Of a DNA stretch of 64,000 nt, positions 1-52,222 are shown piece by piece. How positions within the stretch are numbered: position 1 is the stretch's first letter; every line of letters starts with the position of its first letter. The translations under genes were made by a program, and so were the position numbers. The DNA comes from Candidatus Bathyarchaeota archaeon. Its GTDB lineage: Archaea; Thermoproteota; Bathyarchaeia; Bathyarchaeales; Bathycorpusculaceae. The DNA lies in NCBI GenBank assembly GCA_026014595.1, contig JAOZHY010000048.1:1-64000 (forward strand). The letters are read 5' to 3'. The notes under the pieces were generated by a model. The model worked only from the letters and a program-made list of their open reading frames with translations. It did no database searches and had not been told where the DNA came from.

Positions 1-2
1 AT

Positions 3-107
3 GATGCGGTAAGGTTCCACTTCCGCGATGATGCCTTGCAAGCGCTAGACATGGGTGCAGCAACCCTTGAAAAAGTAATTGCTTGCTTGCAGAAATGCGT
101 AGTATAA
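3..107 (+). CDS. C-terminal fragment of a protein truncated by the window edge (…DAVRFHFRDDALQALDMGAATLEKVIACLQKCVV*)
   Basis: Open frame from window start to TAA at 105-107. Confidence 0.5.
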   Translation, partial: DAVRFHFRDDALQALDMGAATLEKVIACLQKCVV

Positions 108-109
108 AA

Positions 110-600
110 AAGGCGCTCTCTAAAAGTTTCCTGAAAAAAAATAATCTTTTTTTTAAAAAAAAATTCCAGCAACAACAAAAATTTCCAGAAAAAAAGTTGT
201 GACCAGAAAAAATATTTTGAGAAAAAATAGTTTGTAAGAAAAAAATATTTTTTTCGCTTAACAAAAAAATTCTCAAAATTTTCCACAAGAAAATTTTTTC
301 TCCATTAGTTTTTTTCCAGAAACTTTTAGCCCTGCCCCCAAATATTTTTCCATGTGCAGGGGTGAGCGTGTTTAGATTTTTTTTGGGAAATTGGAATTTT
401 TCAACGCTTGTTTAAAATTTCCATAGTTAAAGTTTTTTATCTTTAAAAAAATAAATTATTTTAGAGATTTTTAGGTTTTTCCCATGCAAAAATCGCCGAC
501 ATAATGGACTATTGCCCATAATATAATTTTAGGTAATAGTTGGATGTTTATATGCAAAAAGAAGCCTAAAACAAGCCCCTTTCAATTATGAATAAATCGC
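110..600. other. Extremely A/T-rich non-coding tract with homopolymeric A and T runs
   Basis: Direct reading: many A7-A9/T7-T9 runs, no credible ORF, lies just downstream of the recombinase. Confidence 0.8.
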
Positions 601-604
601 AGCG

Positions 605-1258
605 CTAAGTTTCTTGACCTATTTCCCGTTGGATAATATCCATAGCAAAGCGCCTGACATAATTAAAACCTGTCTGCACGCTTTCTAAGTCGAGCCTTCG
701 CTGCACTTTGAAGGCGCCGATGATTGAAGGGTCGGCTTTCACCACGTCTGACGCCGCGGTTTCTCTGAAAAGGTGGCACCATGCTTTCTCAGTTATTGCC
801 CTAACCAGATTGAATATCTGTCTGCCAGTAATCGCTTTATCGCCTATGATTGTGTAGCCTTGACCCCAGAGGCTCTTAGTTTGTGGAAAATAGTATTTTG
901 GCACAGGGGCTAAACTCTGCAGATAATTAAGGTATTCGAGAACGGGTTTAGTCAACGGGTCGGAGAGTGGAATTGATTTTTGAGAACGTTTGGTTATGAC
1001 GTTTTGCCGTCGCTTCTTGCTCAATGTAAACGTTATATGCAAAAAGTCGTTCTCAACTTTGAAGTCTGACAGCTCCAGCCGTGCTACCTCGCTTCGCCGT
1101 TTTCCTGTCAAGCGGAGGATGCACAGCAAAGCTGAGGTCCTTAGGCGGTAAAAAGTTTCAGGGATCGCCTCGGCCTCTCTTAGCATTTCGGCAAACTCTG
1201 CGTCGCCGATCACGTCTTTTCGGTTCACGCGCTCAGGATTACCACGTACAAACGTCAA
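605..1258 (-). CDS. Tyrosine recombinase / phage-type integrase (catalytic-domain type)
   Basis: Motifs LTGKRRSEVARLEL (Arg I), CHLFRETAA (HxxR), TGFNYVRRF (Tyr nucleophile). TTG start at 1258 overlaps the stop of the upstream zinc-ribbon ORF; the ORF track start at 1333 overlaps that ORF. Confidence 0.8.
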   Translation of the reverse strand: MTFVRGNPERVNRKDVIGDAEFAEMLREAEAIPETFYRLRTSALLCILRLTGKRRSEVARLELSDFKVENDFLHITFTLSKKRRQNVITKRSQKSIPLSDPLTKPVLEYLNYLQSLAPVPKYYFPQTKSLWGQGYTIIGDKAITGRQIFNLVRAITEKAWCHLFRETAASDVVKADPSIIGAFKVQRRLDLESVQTGFNYVRRFAMDIIQREIGQET

Positions 1259-1413
1259 GCTGCCCGCCTCAAAATCTTGCTGTTTTTCCTGTGAAGTCTT
1301 ACCTCGATAACTGCGCAACTTGGGTTCCAGCATTCAAGGCGGCGCTGCCTGTGGTTATAGCGCATTTTTGCGCCGCAGTCTGGGCACGCAAGCGCTAAAC
1401 GTTGACGGCTCAT
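1255..1413 (-). CDS. 52-aa zinc-ribbon mini-protein (MSRQRLALACPDCGAKMRYNHRQRRLECWNPSCAVIEVRLHRKNSKILRRAA)
   Basis: Read from the sequence (below the ORF-track size cut-off). CPDC…C…C pattern; ATG overlaps upstream TGA (ATGA). Confidence 0.7.
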   Translation of the reverse strand: MSRQRLALACPDCGAKMRYNHRQRRLECWNPSCAVIEVRLHRKNSKILRRAA

Positions 1414-1628
1414 TTTTGGAAAACCTGCCTAAGTTTATCCTCTTCCGCCTGCTGCTGCAAGTATTTTTCAGCCAACATGACCGACACGTACAGCCCGAAA
1501 GAAACTAAAACGATGCAAAGTTTCCAGTGCCATTCAAGGCTGCTTTTTAGTGCCAAGCCCCCAACTAAGAGCGCCATGAAACCCAGAGCCAAAGCGGACT
1601 TGGAAAAATTGCCGAATCCAACGGACAT
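1410..1628 (-). CDS. Small membrane protein with two hydrophobic segments
   Basis: ORF; ATG at 1628 directly follows the upstream TAA (TAAATG). Confidence 0.65.
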   Translation of the reverse strand: MSVGFGNFSKSALALGFMALLVGGLALKSSLEWHWKLCIVLVSFGLYVSVMLAEKYLQQQAEEDKLRQVFQK

Positions 1629-3581
1629 TTAGCCCCGCCTCTCGCTCCATTTTCGTGGTTTACTTCCCAACAACACAGCAGCCGCAGCCACAACAATTAC
1701 CGCGGCGACGGCTGCAATTATGAGGAAAAACAACCAGCCCCGGTTAACTGTTTCTTTATTTTGCGGCGGCTGCGATGGCGGGGGCTGTGTTGCAGGTTCT
1801 GCGCCTGGGTTCCCTGGAATCAGATTCCAGACCACAACCGCGGGTGTGGCGGTGAAGTTGACGTTTTGCCCCGTTTCACAGTCATATAAACCCGAGACGC
1901 TGTACGTGTGCACCGCAGGCACCGCCGAGAAATCAGCGAAGCAGGGCAGCGAGGCGTTCTCCAAAAAGAGAACCCCGTCCTTAGTGATGTTTACAACGTA
2001 GTCGGTGTAGCCGTTGCCGTTTTTGGTTACTGCAACGTTAACCTGCACAGCGTCCCCCTGAATAACGGGGATTCTCTCCGACGTGTAAGTCAGGACAACA
2101 TTGTAATCTCCTTGCGTTAAAGTGAAGTTGTATAGGTTACTTGCGGCCCAGTTGTTTGCGGTGTCGTTAGCGTAGATTTTAGCAGAGACTACGTTTCCTA
2201 TGGTTTCATTCCACGTTAAATTTAAAGTGATTGGGTTGGATGTGAATGCTGTTGTTGTTTCGTTTTTCCAACTTCCGGTATTGTTGTGGCTCCAAACGTA
2301 GTGGCTGACCGCTTTATTATCTGAGATGTTCGTTGACAACTGAGCTGCTTTTCCAGCTTTGGTTGTATTGGCTGAAATGGAGCTAAAAGTTGGTGGGTCT
2401 TCGTCTGGTGGGGTAATGTTTAAAAACGCGAATTTCACGTTGTAGGGGCTCTCAGTTTTAGTCATGTAAATTGCTGTTATGTAATTACCATACTGGTCTG
2501 AGCAAGCAACCTTTTCCGATGTTAACACTTCACTTTCCTCACTGACCCAGTCTGTTGCAGCACTCCAAGTACTGCCGCCGTCTACTGATGTTTGATAGTA
2601 AATATGGTTAGCTACTGCTCCTGAAGGTTGTCCACTGGTTTTAGTTGCCCAAAAACAATAAAGTGTCTCGTTGTTTGCTATGCTTATAGATGGATATGTA
2701 GCGGCTGCCACGCCAAGTTTAATTTCTGAGAGCGCGGTAAAGCTGTTTGAGGAGTAAACGTACTGTGTATGAAATAATCCCCAAACTGAACCATTCCATG
2801 TCCGGTAAGCGATATGCACGGTGTCGCCTTGAGCAACAGCGCAAAACTGTTCAGGGTCTTGGATGAATGTTGGAGTTGCCACTTCATCCCCCCATGCTGA
2901 ACCGTTCCAAAGGCGCGTTCTAATGGGGTTGCCGTTTACCGCGTAGATTGTAAGCATCTTCTCCTCCGTTAAAGGCAAAATTGTGAAGTCCCAAAGTCCA
3001 GACTGCGGCGCAAGTTGATATGGAAAGCCGTTGGGTGTGGCACCCCAAGTGCCGTCAGTGTTTCCACTTTTTATTATATACGGATAATAGTTGTCTGAGT
3101 ATGCTATCCATGCATACCCGTTGTTGTCAACGGCGACGTATGGGAAAAAGGTTTGGTTGTATGTGGTTGCAATAACCTGTTCAGCGGCGCTCCAAGTGAT
3201 TGTGCCGTCTATGTTAGGCGTGCCTTGTCGATAATACAGTTGCCCGCCAGACGTATAAGCGTAATTTAAATGTGTTCCGTCGAAGTTTACGGAGAAATCG
3301 TATCCGCTTGCGGCTTCTCTAATAGCTGCTGTGCTTGTCCACGTTCCCCCGTTTAAGCTCGTTGCATAAACTAAATGTGTGCCATTTGCGTAGAAAATCC
3401 AGAAACGGTTTTTCGCGTAAAAGGTTCTGTCTTGGTATGGATAAGCAAATGCGTTTTGCCTTGTGGAAGTCCCTGCAATGTTTGGCTCCTGCGCTTTTGT
3501 AAGGTTCACTTGGTAAAGTCCTAAGAACATTGCCGAAACTAACAAAGCAACGAAAATTGTTGACAAAAATTTAGCTTTCAT
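1629..3581 (-). CDS. Secreted, C-terminally TM-anchored protein with BNR/sialidase-like repeats
   Basis: Signal-like N-terminus MKAKFLSTIFVALLVSAMFLGLYQV; SVDGGSTWSAATDW BNR-like motif; C-terminal TM plus basic tail. Start chosen at MKAKF (3581), coupled to the upstream micro-ORF. Confidence 0.7.
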   Translation of the reverse strand: MKAKFLSTIFVALLVSAMFLGLYQVNLTKAQEPNIAGTSTRQNAFAYPYQDRTFYAKNRFWIFYANGTHLVYATSLNGGTWTSTAAIREAASGYDFSVNFDGTHLNYAYTSGGQLYYRQGTPNIDGTITWSAAEQVIATTYNQTFFPYVAVDNNGYAWIAYSDNYYPYIIKSGNTDGTWGATPNGFPYQLAPQSGLWDFTILPLTEEKMLTIYAVNGNPIRTRLWNGSAWGDEVATPTFIQDPEQFCAVAQGDTVHIAYRTWNGSVWGLFHTQYVYSSNSFTALSEIKLGVAAATYPSISIANNETLYCFWATKTSGQPSGAVANHIYYQTSVDGGSTWSAATDWVSEESEVLTSEKVACSDQYGNYITAIYMTKTESPYNVKFAFLNITPPDEDPPTFSSISANTTKAGKAAQLSTNISDNKAVSHYVWSHNNTGSWKNETTTAFTSNPITLNLTWNETIGNVVSAKIYANDTANNWAASNLYNFTLTQGDYNVVLTYTSERIPVIQGDAVQVNVAVTKNGNGYTDYVVNITKDGVLFLENASLPCFADFSAVPAVHTYSVSGLYDCETGQNVNFTATPAVVVWNLIPGNPGAEPATQPPPSQPPQNKETVNRGWLFFLIIAAVAAVIVVAAAAVLLGSKPRKWSERRG

Positions 3582-3664
3582 TTTTTGCGCCTCTGTTTTT
3601 GCATGCGCCAGTAGCGCCTCAGCTCCGTGTCTGGTTTGCGTGGTCTGCCTCTTTGCTTTGCCAT
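3578..3664 (-). CDS. 28-aa AT-hook micro-protein (MAKQRGRPRKPDTELRRYWRMQKQRRKK)
   Basis: Read from the sequence; RGRPRKP is an AT-hook core; TGA overlaps the next ATG (ATGA at 3581-3578). Confidence 0.5.
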   Translation of the reverse strand: MAKQRGRPRKPDTELRRYWRMQKQRRKK

Positions 3665-3854
3665 GGCTGCTCAAAAAAAACTGTTTTTCCAAGAATTTAA
3701 AATACGTTTAAAATGTTTTAGAATGGAAAAGACTTGAGGTTTTTGCGTGGTTTAGCCTACCCTTTTTTGTTAAAAAACGCTTAGTCGTCTACATGGTGAA
3801 CGCTGTTGCGGCGATATTGTGAAATGTGTAAAAACTGTAAAAGTGTAAACCACA

Positions 3855-4082
3855 TCAGCGTTTCCGTTTCTGAGCAGGGACAACTTGCAGCTCCATGTCT
3901 ATTTTCTCAAGCACAGCAAACAACTCGCTGGTTAAAGTGTTGAACCTTGCTGGGCTGCGCCGCCTGAACTGCGTGAGCTGGTAGCGCCTACGCATGAACG
4001 CGTTATAGTTGCTGCGCTGAGACGTGTCACCATCACATAAAAGCGCTGGCAGCTTCTTGACTACACGTTTAGCGTTCACCAT
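3855..4082 (-). CDS. Small basic hypothetical protein
   Basis: ORF on the same strand as the 605-3664 cassette. Confidence 0.4.
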   Translation of the reverse strand: MVNAKRVVKKLPALLCDGDTSQRSNYNAFMRRRYQLTQFRRRSPARFNTLTSELFAVLEKIDMELQVVPAQKRKR

Positions 4083-4337
4083 GCGCTAAAACTCTCCAAA
4101 AAAAAGAGGGGAAGATTGGGGAGACATCACCAATTTGCGCGGGTTACAGCCAACACACCAGCCTATCCTTGAACCCGCCTTCTCTTAAAGGAACAATATA
4201 CTACAAGAAAAACGAAACCCTGTAGCGAGATTGGCAGCGTCAACACTTGCTAAAAAGAGCCTTATTTTCGCGAGGCAGCTTAAAATAGGTGTGCGTCCAA
4301 TTTTGGGAAAATAACTAACCGGGGAAATATAGGGCGG

Positions 4338-17070: not shown

Positions 17071-17195
17071 GTGGGCTGCCAGCTTTCCCAGGTTCACGTG
17101 GCCGAAGACCACACTACAGCTGGGAACGGAACGCGGTTTAACTTCTGAGTTCGGAATGGGATCAGGTGGGACCCGCGCCCTTTGGCCGGCAAACC
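17071..17195 (-). rRNA. 5S ribosomal RNA
   Basis: Reverse strand reads GGGTCCCACCTGATCCCATTCCGAACTCAGAAGTTAAACC…; complementary ends (TGCCGGC/GCTGGCA) form the terminal helix. Confidence 0.9.
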
Positions 17196-17339: not shown

Positions 17340-17513
17340 GGGGCTGTAGTCTAGGCAGGCATGACGACGGGCTCCAGAAAGCAAGCAACGGGTTTGCTGA
17401 CCTCGCCCAGAGGAATGACGAAATTCTGGAGCGGTCTTAGAGAAACCCGTAGGAACGGCCAAGCGACTGTTTCCGGGTAAAGGTCGTCGGTTCAAATCCG
17501 GCCAGCCCCACCA
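17340..17513 (+). tRNA. tRNA-Trp (anticodon CCA at 17374-17376), CCA-encoded, with two apparent introns
   Basis: Acceptor GGGGCTG/CAGCCCC + A + CCA; anticodon stem ACGGG/CCCGT interrupted after G37 by about 67 nt (17378-17444); about 28-30 nt insertion between CCCGT (17446-17450) and the T arm GTCGG-TTCAAAT-CCGGC. Confidence 0.9.
17378..17444 (+). ncRNA. Candidate box C/D guide RNA in the tRNA-Trp 37/38 intron
   Basis: CTGA (D'-like, 17397-17400) preceded by AACGGGTTT complementary to AAACCCG(T) of the 3' exon; ATGACGA (C'-like, 17415-17421) followed by TTCTGGAGC complementary to GCTCCAGAA across the anticodon. Confidence 0.6.
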
Positions 17514-51499: not shown

Positions 51500-52051
51500 T
51501 CAAAGATAAATGTTAAGCGCTTTGCTTTTCTGGAGTAGGTAGATTATGACCACGCTTATCACCATCTCAGGAAGCATATAGCTTGCATTGTATCCAACTG
51601 AGTAAACGAAGGGGTTCAGGTCTGGCGCAAACATCGGAGCAAACCAGACTACGCCAGATATGAAGTGCATCACGAAGCGTCCCGTTGTGCCCACAACCAC
51701 GCCGAAAGCGGGCCATTTTTTGAAGAAACCTGCCAAGCCGAGACAGCCGAAAGCGAACGGGTAGTCAAACAGAACTTGAGCAGGGTTATACGCGTAAGGC
51801 ATAACAACTAGCTGTACCACGCCGTACAGTGCGCCTGTGAACAAGCCGATTTTGGCTCCTCTTCTCAGCGATAGCCACAGGATAGGAACCATCGACCCCG
51901 CGGTGACTGAGCCGCCCTGCGGTAAGATTGTGAATGTCACGAAACTTAACGCCGTCGCCAAGGCAACAAAGGTTATGATTTCGGCGAGTATTTTGGTTGA
52001 AAAAGCTTTTCTGAGTCTGGTCAATAAGGTAGGTTTGTTTGTTTGGTTCAT
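51500..52051 (-). CDS. thiT: ThiT-like thiamine transporter (start corrected to 52051)
   Basis: ATALSFVTF…GGSVTAGSMVPILWLSLRRGAKIGLFTGALYGVVQL; preceded by a TPP riboswitch; the ORF-track start lies inside the aptamer. Confidence 0.88.
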   Translation of the reverse strand: MNQTNKPTLLTRLRKAFSTKILAEIITFVALATALSFVTFTILPQGGSVTAGSMVPILWLSLRRGAKIGLFTGALYGVVQLVVMPYAYNPAQVLFDYPFAFGCLGLAGFFKKWPAFGVVVGTTGRFVMHFISGVVWFAPMFAPDLNPFVYSVGYNASYMLPEMVISVVIIYLLQKSKALNIYL

Positions 52052-52059
52052 TGTTTTTC

Positions 52060-52152
52060 CCTCCGCCAGTATTATCTGGTTCAGGTTCAAAGGGTCGACA
52101 ACAGCGTCGGTTGTCCTCTCAGCCGGGTTCGCTCCCAGCTCCCCGAAACCTT
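52060..52152 (-). promoter_or_regulatory. TPP (THI-box) riboswitch
   Basis: Minus strand: CGGGGAGCTGGGAGCGAACCCGGCTGAGAGGACAACCGACGCTGTTGTCGACCCTTTGAACCTGAACCAGATAATACTGGCGGAGGGA; conserved GCTGAGA and ACCCTTTGAACCTGA…GATAATACTGGCG…GGGA. Confidence 0.95.
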
Positions 52153-52222
52153 AAAGGGGATAATGTTTTTAGGTGGTATTTTAATTTTCCTAAGCAAACA
52201 AGCTAACGAGGAACCGTGAAGC

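Follow-up and report, generated by a model that had tools for sequence, protein, structure and literature searches.

The window analyzed here, 64,000 nucleotides in all, begins at the end of a contig from a Candidatus Bathyarchaeota genome (G000; 51 contigs, 89% complete). Between positions 605 and 3664, five closely packed genes run along its minus strand. In order of transcription, these encode a 28-amino-acid AT-hook protein (GRPRKP...ELRRYWR; positions 3578 to 3664), a 650-amino-acid surface protein (1629 to 3581), a 72-amino-acid protein with two hydrophobic, transmembrane-like segments (1410 to 1628), a 52-amino-acid zinc-ribbon mini-protein (CPDCG...CWNPSC; 1255 to 1413), and a 217-amino-acid catalytic-domain tyrosine recombinase (605 to 1258; PF00589, E value of 5.7e-8). 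"AT-hook," "zinc-ribbon," and "BNR," the last used for the surface protein, are motif-level names, and a Pfam search with the zinc-ribbon mini-protein returned sub-threshold zinc-ribbon matches only. The AT-hook and surface genes overlap by 4 nucleotides in an ATGA, the surface and transmembrane genes abut with no gap (TAAATG), and the two remaining junctions read ATGA (transmembrane to zinc ribbon) and TTGA (zinc ribbon to recombinase). Re-reading of the sequence confirmed all five frames and four junctions as an earlier note on this DNA had placed them. The TTG start of the recombinase at 1258 is supported because the same junction reads ATGA in a second copy of the gene set, located on contig C8 of the same genome.

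The operon is longer than the earlier note had it: its five genes do belong together, but the list was incomplete. Alignment adds a sixth member upstream of the AT-hook gene, also on the minus strand, that encodes a basic protein of 75 amino acids (3855 to 4082). Between the two lies a minus-strand leader or promoter region (3665 to 3854) with a conserved TAAAACATTTTA core, which could be aligned in five elements and is 95 to 100% identical between the window and C8. Downstream of the recombinase, an AT-rich convergent spacer (108 to 604) is 83 to 100% identical to C8 over 356 to 604 and is gapped and AT-rich below 356. It is followed by the 3' end of a plus-strand gene related to HTH regulators (3 to 107), of which 34 codons remain before the contig end. 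Of 25 aligned residues, 13 are identical to the C terminus of an HTH protein in G003a, one of two complete elements (G003a, locus L027, and G003b, locus L058) carried by Ca. Bathyarchaeota archaeon A05DMB-2 (G003), a member of the same genus. Elsewhere in the window, a 171-bp Rfam tRNA match at 17340 to 17510, adjoining the 5S rRNA at 17074 to 17193, is probably a tRNA with an intron that ARAGORN did not call, and a TPP riboswitch lies on the minus strand at 52041 to 52155 (Rfam, 68 bits; archaeal genome).

C8 repeats the gene order of the operon with an equal gap at each junction. Together with dN/dS ratios of 0.06 to 0.22 for the AT-hook, transmembrane, zinc-ribbon, and recombinase genes, this indicates that the five-gene arrangement reflects more than chance. 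Those ratios compare the window with C8 or G003a and include only non-saturated dS values, dS being saturated in several of the more distant comparisons. Against C8, values across the small genes and the recombinase were 0.08 to 0.22; the zinc-ribbon gene gave 0.12 to 0.17 and the basic-protein gene approximately 0.1 to 0.2. The mini-ORFs are real genes under purifying selection (dN/dS mostly 0.05 to 0.3), and their conservation at the protein level bears out the earlier reading of them as genes. The basic protein is the commonest of the element family, present in 9 of 257 Bathyarchaeia genomes. Strong matches to the transmembrane protein, which is 49 to 72% identical to its counterparts in three sister elements, are confined to this genus, and weak matches outside the genus had no cassette neighbors within ~1.5 kb.

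The boundaries of the mobile unit lie outside the five genes. Positions 4139 to 4164 are a 26-bp remnant of the 3' end of an RNase P RNA gene, 100% identical to the end of the intact gene that G000 carries on contig C49 (C49:84794-85101). Directly after that intact gene, C49 encodes a 381-amino-acid zinc-ribbon tyrosine integrase (PF00589, E value of 1.4e-17), and the contig ends inside a gene with 77% DNA identity to the PrimPol gene of G003a. On C49, the genes that precede the RNase P RNA correspond to those at an uninterrupted RNase P RNA gene in G003 (contig C76; RF00373, E value of 6.5e-53). The end of this gene matches window positions 4139 to 4163 over 25 bp, and host similarity between the window and that contig ends at 4272. 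The shared attachment repeat, the integrase and PrimPol genes on C49, and the matching host genes indicate that the window and C49 flank a single insertion. The five ORFs therefore belong to the operon at the right end of a ~9-kb integrative element whose insertion point is the 3' end of the RNase P RNA gene. Its right half occupies 1 to 4164 of the window, its left half is C49:85082-87417, and its middle is unassembled, so that the full gene content of the window's own element is inferred from G003a. End repeats, an uninterrupted site in a relative, and an integrase just inside one end are all present, and the putative circular form would carry the end-to-end junction GCGGGTTACAGCCAACACACCAGCCT. 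The search for boundaries in related genomes proposed in the earlier note thus did yield direct repeats and uninterrupted sites. "Mobile" stands, but the unit is the ~9-kb element with its own integrase and right attachment site rather than a 3-kb cassette, and "compact" is not supported. In the open-access literature searched, we found no paper that describes RNase P RNA as a site of integration in archaea and none on such elements in Bathyarchaeia.

The break at window position 1, which is a contig end, and the missing middle of the element might raise the suspicion of an assembly or annotation artifact, or of an ordinary host operon. We consider this extremely improbable, since independent complete copies with target-site repeats and uninterrupted sites exist in another genome, the copies in G003 already contradict it, and the genes are under purifying selection. 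G003a spans 9,354 bp between two copies of GGTTTAAAT (a 9-bp repeat), for which C8 is the empty site, and G003b is 8,522 bp long and bounded by 14-bp repeats that lie at a tRNA-Phe gene (5' end). A further element of 8,016 bp, in genome G017, sits at tRNA-His. PrimPol (PF09250) was recognized in G003a (E value of 4.7e-11) and G003b (5.2e-10); Pfam identified no helicase part of the replication protein. G003a also has a weak RHH_1 match (E value of 0.0019, below the Pfam cutoff), in place of which G003b has a MazE/AbrB-like protein.

Besides the elements of the window and C8, G000 carries a third on contig C35 (L013, 4225 to 9123), with a zinc-ribbon integrase, a D5_N/DUF5906 primase, and more distant relatives of the basic and AT-hook genes. 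The C35 and G017 elements both have a D5-type primase instead of PrimPol. The C35 element also encodes a possibly capsid-like protein of 90 amino acids, which has two hydrophobic helices; its PHROG matches are marginal only. The operon of G003a includes two extra small genes (L027, 8418 to 8603 and 7846 to 8145), which encode an LSM-like protein (E value of 2e-4) and a 99-amino-acid Cys/His-rich protein with no Pfam match and, by eye, a resemblance to HNH endonucleases.

Comparison of these elements shows a fixed operon frame consisting of the basic protein, the leader, the AT-hook gene, a slot for a surface-protein gene, the small transmembrane protein, the zinc ribbon, and the short recombinase. 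The AT-hook gene is kept in C8, G003a, G003b, and C35. The window and C8 are 93 to 100% identical from 3995 to 3640, unrelated across the surface gene, and similar again from ~1640. Identity changes sharply at the slot edges, with flanks 94 to 100% identical on either side of the non-homologous gene. In C8 and G003a, the slot holds an unrelated CarboxypepD_reg-like protein of 134 and 144 amino acids, respectively, and in G003b it is empty, the AT-hook ORF running directly into the transmembrane gene. The ATGA overlap of the AT-hook and surface genes is preserved in the window, C8, and G003a. Whole surface-protein genes have thus been exchanged in the slot with the start/stop overlaps unbroken, and this exchangeable surface slot is a new feature.

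For all their differences, the surface proteins of the window, C8, and G003a share a signal-like N terminus and a C-terminal transmembrane segment, and direct reading of the sequences reveals a KPRKW tail common to those of the window and G003a. In the 650-amino-acid protein, the transmembrane-like segments are at residues 5 to 23 and 620 to 638. Its N-terminal region is BNR-like and the protein contains a single Asp-box-like motif (SVDGGSTWS), while Pfam gave no BNR match at an E value of ≤1. The predicted structure is unreliable (mean pLDDT of 36). Residues ~30 to 430 have relatives in large Bathyarchaeia surface proteins, and 33 other genomes match some part of the protein; no cassette genes were seen within ~1.5 kb on each side of the BNR relatives at the eleven loci examined. 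The presence of these N-terminal relatives suggests that this part of the protein was probably captured from a host pool.

The short recombinase and all other full-length members of its family retain the catalytic Arg, HxxR, and Tyr, as seen in an alignment with four integrases; the window's copy is 94% identical over 217 amino acids to the C8 copy and 87% identical to that of G003a. It shares these residues with XerA, XerC, XerD, and the Fim-type recombinases. It differs from them in consisting of little besides the catalytic domain, in having Leu at the usual His/Trp position, and in having the zinc ribbon encoded separately upstream. The best structural neighbors of its predicted fold were XerH chains, weakly, and an NCBIfam invertase match was weak as well (E value of 0.028); a PDB sequence search returned nothing useful. 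It is not the integrase of the element, which is encoded separately. The recombinase occurs in 7 of 257 genomes and within the cassette only in G000 and G003; the five other genomes have it without a detected cassette, the copy in G074 being truncated by the contig end and lying beside a PrimPol-integrase element. A copy in G031 (L030, 7719 to 8604, contig C3) is broken and adjoins tRNA-Asn. Among relatives, that of G004 overlaps a small ORF of 69 amino acids, that of G016 has other neighbors, and a distant one in G014 (L028, 6726 to 8580, contig C128), with a zinc-finger insert, overlaps a Zot/terminase-like ATPase gene by 14 nucleotides. The co-occurrence expected by the earlier note therefore holds for three copies of the set but not for the relatives in G014, G004, and G016, which lie beside unrelated genes. 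G003b retains the zinc-ribbon gene and has a different, 281-amino-acid recombinase in place of the short one. That replacement, and the relatives with other neighbors, indicate that the short recombinase is an accessory gene and not what defines the unit.

The earlier note had gone further and suggested a mobile or phase-switching cassette; as a stand-alone unit, this would have the recombinase move or invert the surface gene. The two genes do share one operon, and the catalytic-only recombinase is near the Fim-type invertases in size. In addition, the coding region contains just one long inverted repeat, a perfect 16-bp pair with one arm in the zinc-ribbon gene (1368 to 1383) and the other in the surface gene (2998 to 3013), of a length reached in 1 of 300 shuffled sequences. 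We rejected this repeat as an invertible switch because it lies within two coding regions and inversion would break both genes; it also has no counterpart among the repeats reported for C8. No conserved pair of inverted repeats bounds a segment or surrounds a promoter or gene, as it would in a Fim-type switch, and the analysis revealed no invertible segment. We likewise discarded the leader preceding the AT-hook gene as a recombinase site, because it is conserved across five elements of which two lack this recombinase, which would suit a promoter or operator better. With the slot of G003b empty beside a different recombinase, and with the insertion boundaries outside the cassette, phase switching is very unlikely.

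A related idea is that the short recombinase acts at fixed sites to trade surface genes from one element to another. The edges of non-homology at the slot are sharp, and the recombinase accompanies all three filled slots and is missing beside the empty one. Nevertheless, we recognized no short site common to both edges of the slot. What is conserved there are long coding blocks, as in homologous recombination, and five other genomes have the recombinase with no detected cassette, one of these copies, in G074, being truncated at a contig end. We consider exchange driven by this enzyme to be improbable. The pattern of identity instead suggests homologous exchange between elements, which is possible given that two elements and a more distant third reside in one genome.

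Archaeal plasmids of the pRN type are small and carry PrimPol and CopG genes. The element resembles these plasmids and their integrated relatives in its PrimPol with a neighboring small candidate ribbon-helix-helix protein, its small size, its tyrosine integrase, and its insertion in an RNA gene. It differs from them in the zinc ribbon fused to the integrase, in the RNase P RNA target, and in the added operon with an exchangeable surface slot and a second recombinase. The assignment draws on G003a and on weak domain scores, the window's own element being seen only in part. A likeness to the pR1SE-like plasmid-vesicle elements (apHPVs) lies in plasmid-borne membrane proteins and in one of their core proteins, ORF6, which varies in its N-terminal part and is conserved in its C-terminal part (PMC10818511). 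Their core regions span 18 to 44 kb, with ten core genes in two clusters, and are reported only from haloarchaea (PMC10818511). Our comparison with apHPVs covers size and host range only. Among viruses of Bathyarchaeia, the spindle-shaped Huangdivirus (PMC10848311), for example, likewise encodes a tyrosine integrase and integrates in hosts of this class, but no capsid protein was recognized in the element, the two-helix hydrophobic protein of C35 having marginal PHROG matches.

The element could also be proviral, the small integrated genome of a pleomorphic virus with a membrane envelope, with the surface protein as spike, the two-transmembrane-segment protein as membrane protein, and the AT-hook, basic, and zinc-ribbon proteins binding the genome. 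Like the Pleolipoviridae and AvPV1-like viruses (PMC10919331), it is a small integrating element in which an anchored surface protein adjoins a small membrane protein; its size is within 7 to 17 kb, and a pleomorphic provirus with attachment sites at a tRNA gene is already known (PMC10919331). The overlap of the distant G014 recombinase relative with a Zot/terminase-like ATPase gene is in keeping with this as well. The hallmark of the Pleolipoviridae, however, is a VP4-like spike, accompanied by a conserved NTPase in the morphogenesis block. In our family, the surface protein is variable, encoded by a gene of just 134 to 144 codons in two copies and absent from G003b, and the genes called for the complete G003a element included no NTPase. 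Furthermore, the recombinase, basic, transmembrane, and PrimPol proteins had no match in IMG/VR at the sensitivity used. Annotated phage records gave none for the recombinase or for the protein TM90, and for the 72-amino-acid transmembrane protein a single 21-residue match at chance level (E value of about 1). Plasmid records gave recombinase matches at chance level only. On balance, a provirus seems unlikely.

The explanation we favor as probable is an integrative, plasmid-like element of the PrimPol type that has a slot for exchangeable surface-protein genes. Such an element would excise, replicate, and move as a PrimPol/CopG-type plasmid. The surface protein would use its C-terminal anchor for display on the cell surface or on a vesicle derived from the element, with the two-transmembrane-segment protein as its putative membrane partner, and may serve to contact other cells or to exclude them. 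Slot swapping would for the most part be homologous exchange, through their near-identical flanks, among elements that reside in one cell, and the short recombinase may be an accessory enzyme for multimer resolution or a helper in excision. The anatomy of the element is well supported; the purposes of the surface protein and second recombinase are those we infer, and one element, G003b, has no slot gene. In a bolder version, to which we attach little probability, this would be a new class of Bathyarchaeia transfer elements. They would spread in cell-derived vesicles or by contact and trade entire proteins for adhesion or receptor binding in a slot locked by translational coupling, a task to which the short recombinase and its separate zinc-ribbon subunit would be dedicated.

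The mobile elements of the abundant Bathyarchaeia have been little described. The present analysis bounds one family of them to the base, names RNase P RNA as its target, and identifies a slot in which a surface-protein gene is replaced whole while the overlapping operon around it is kept. It thereby offers a testable system for how archaeal elements alter surface specificity.
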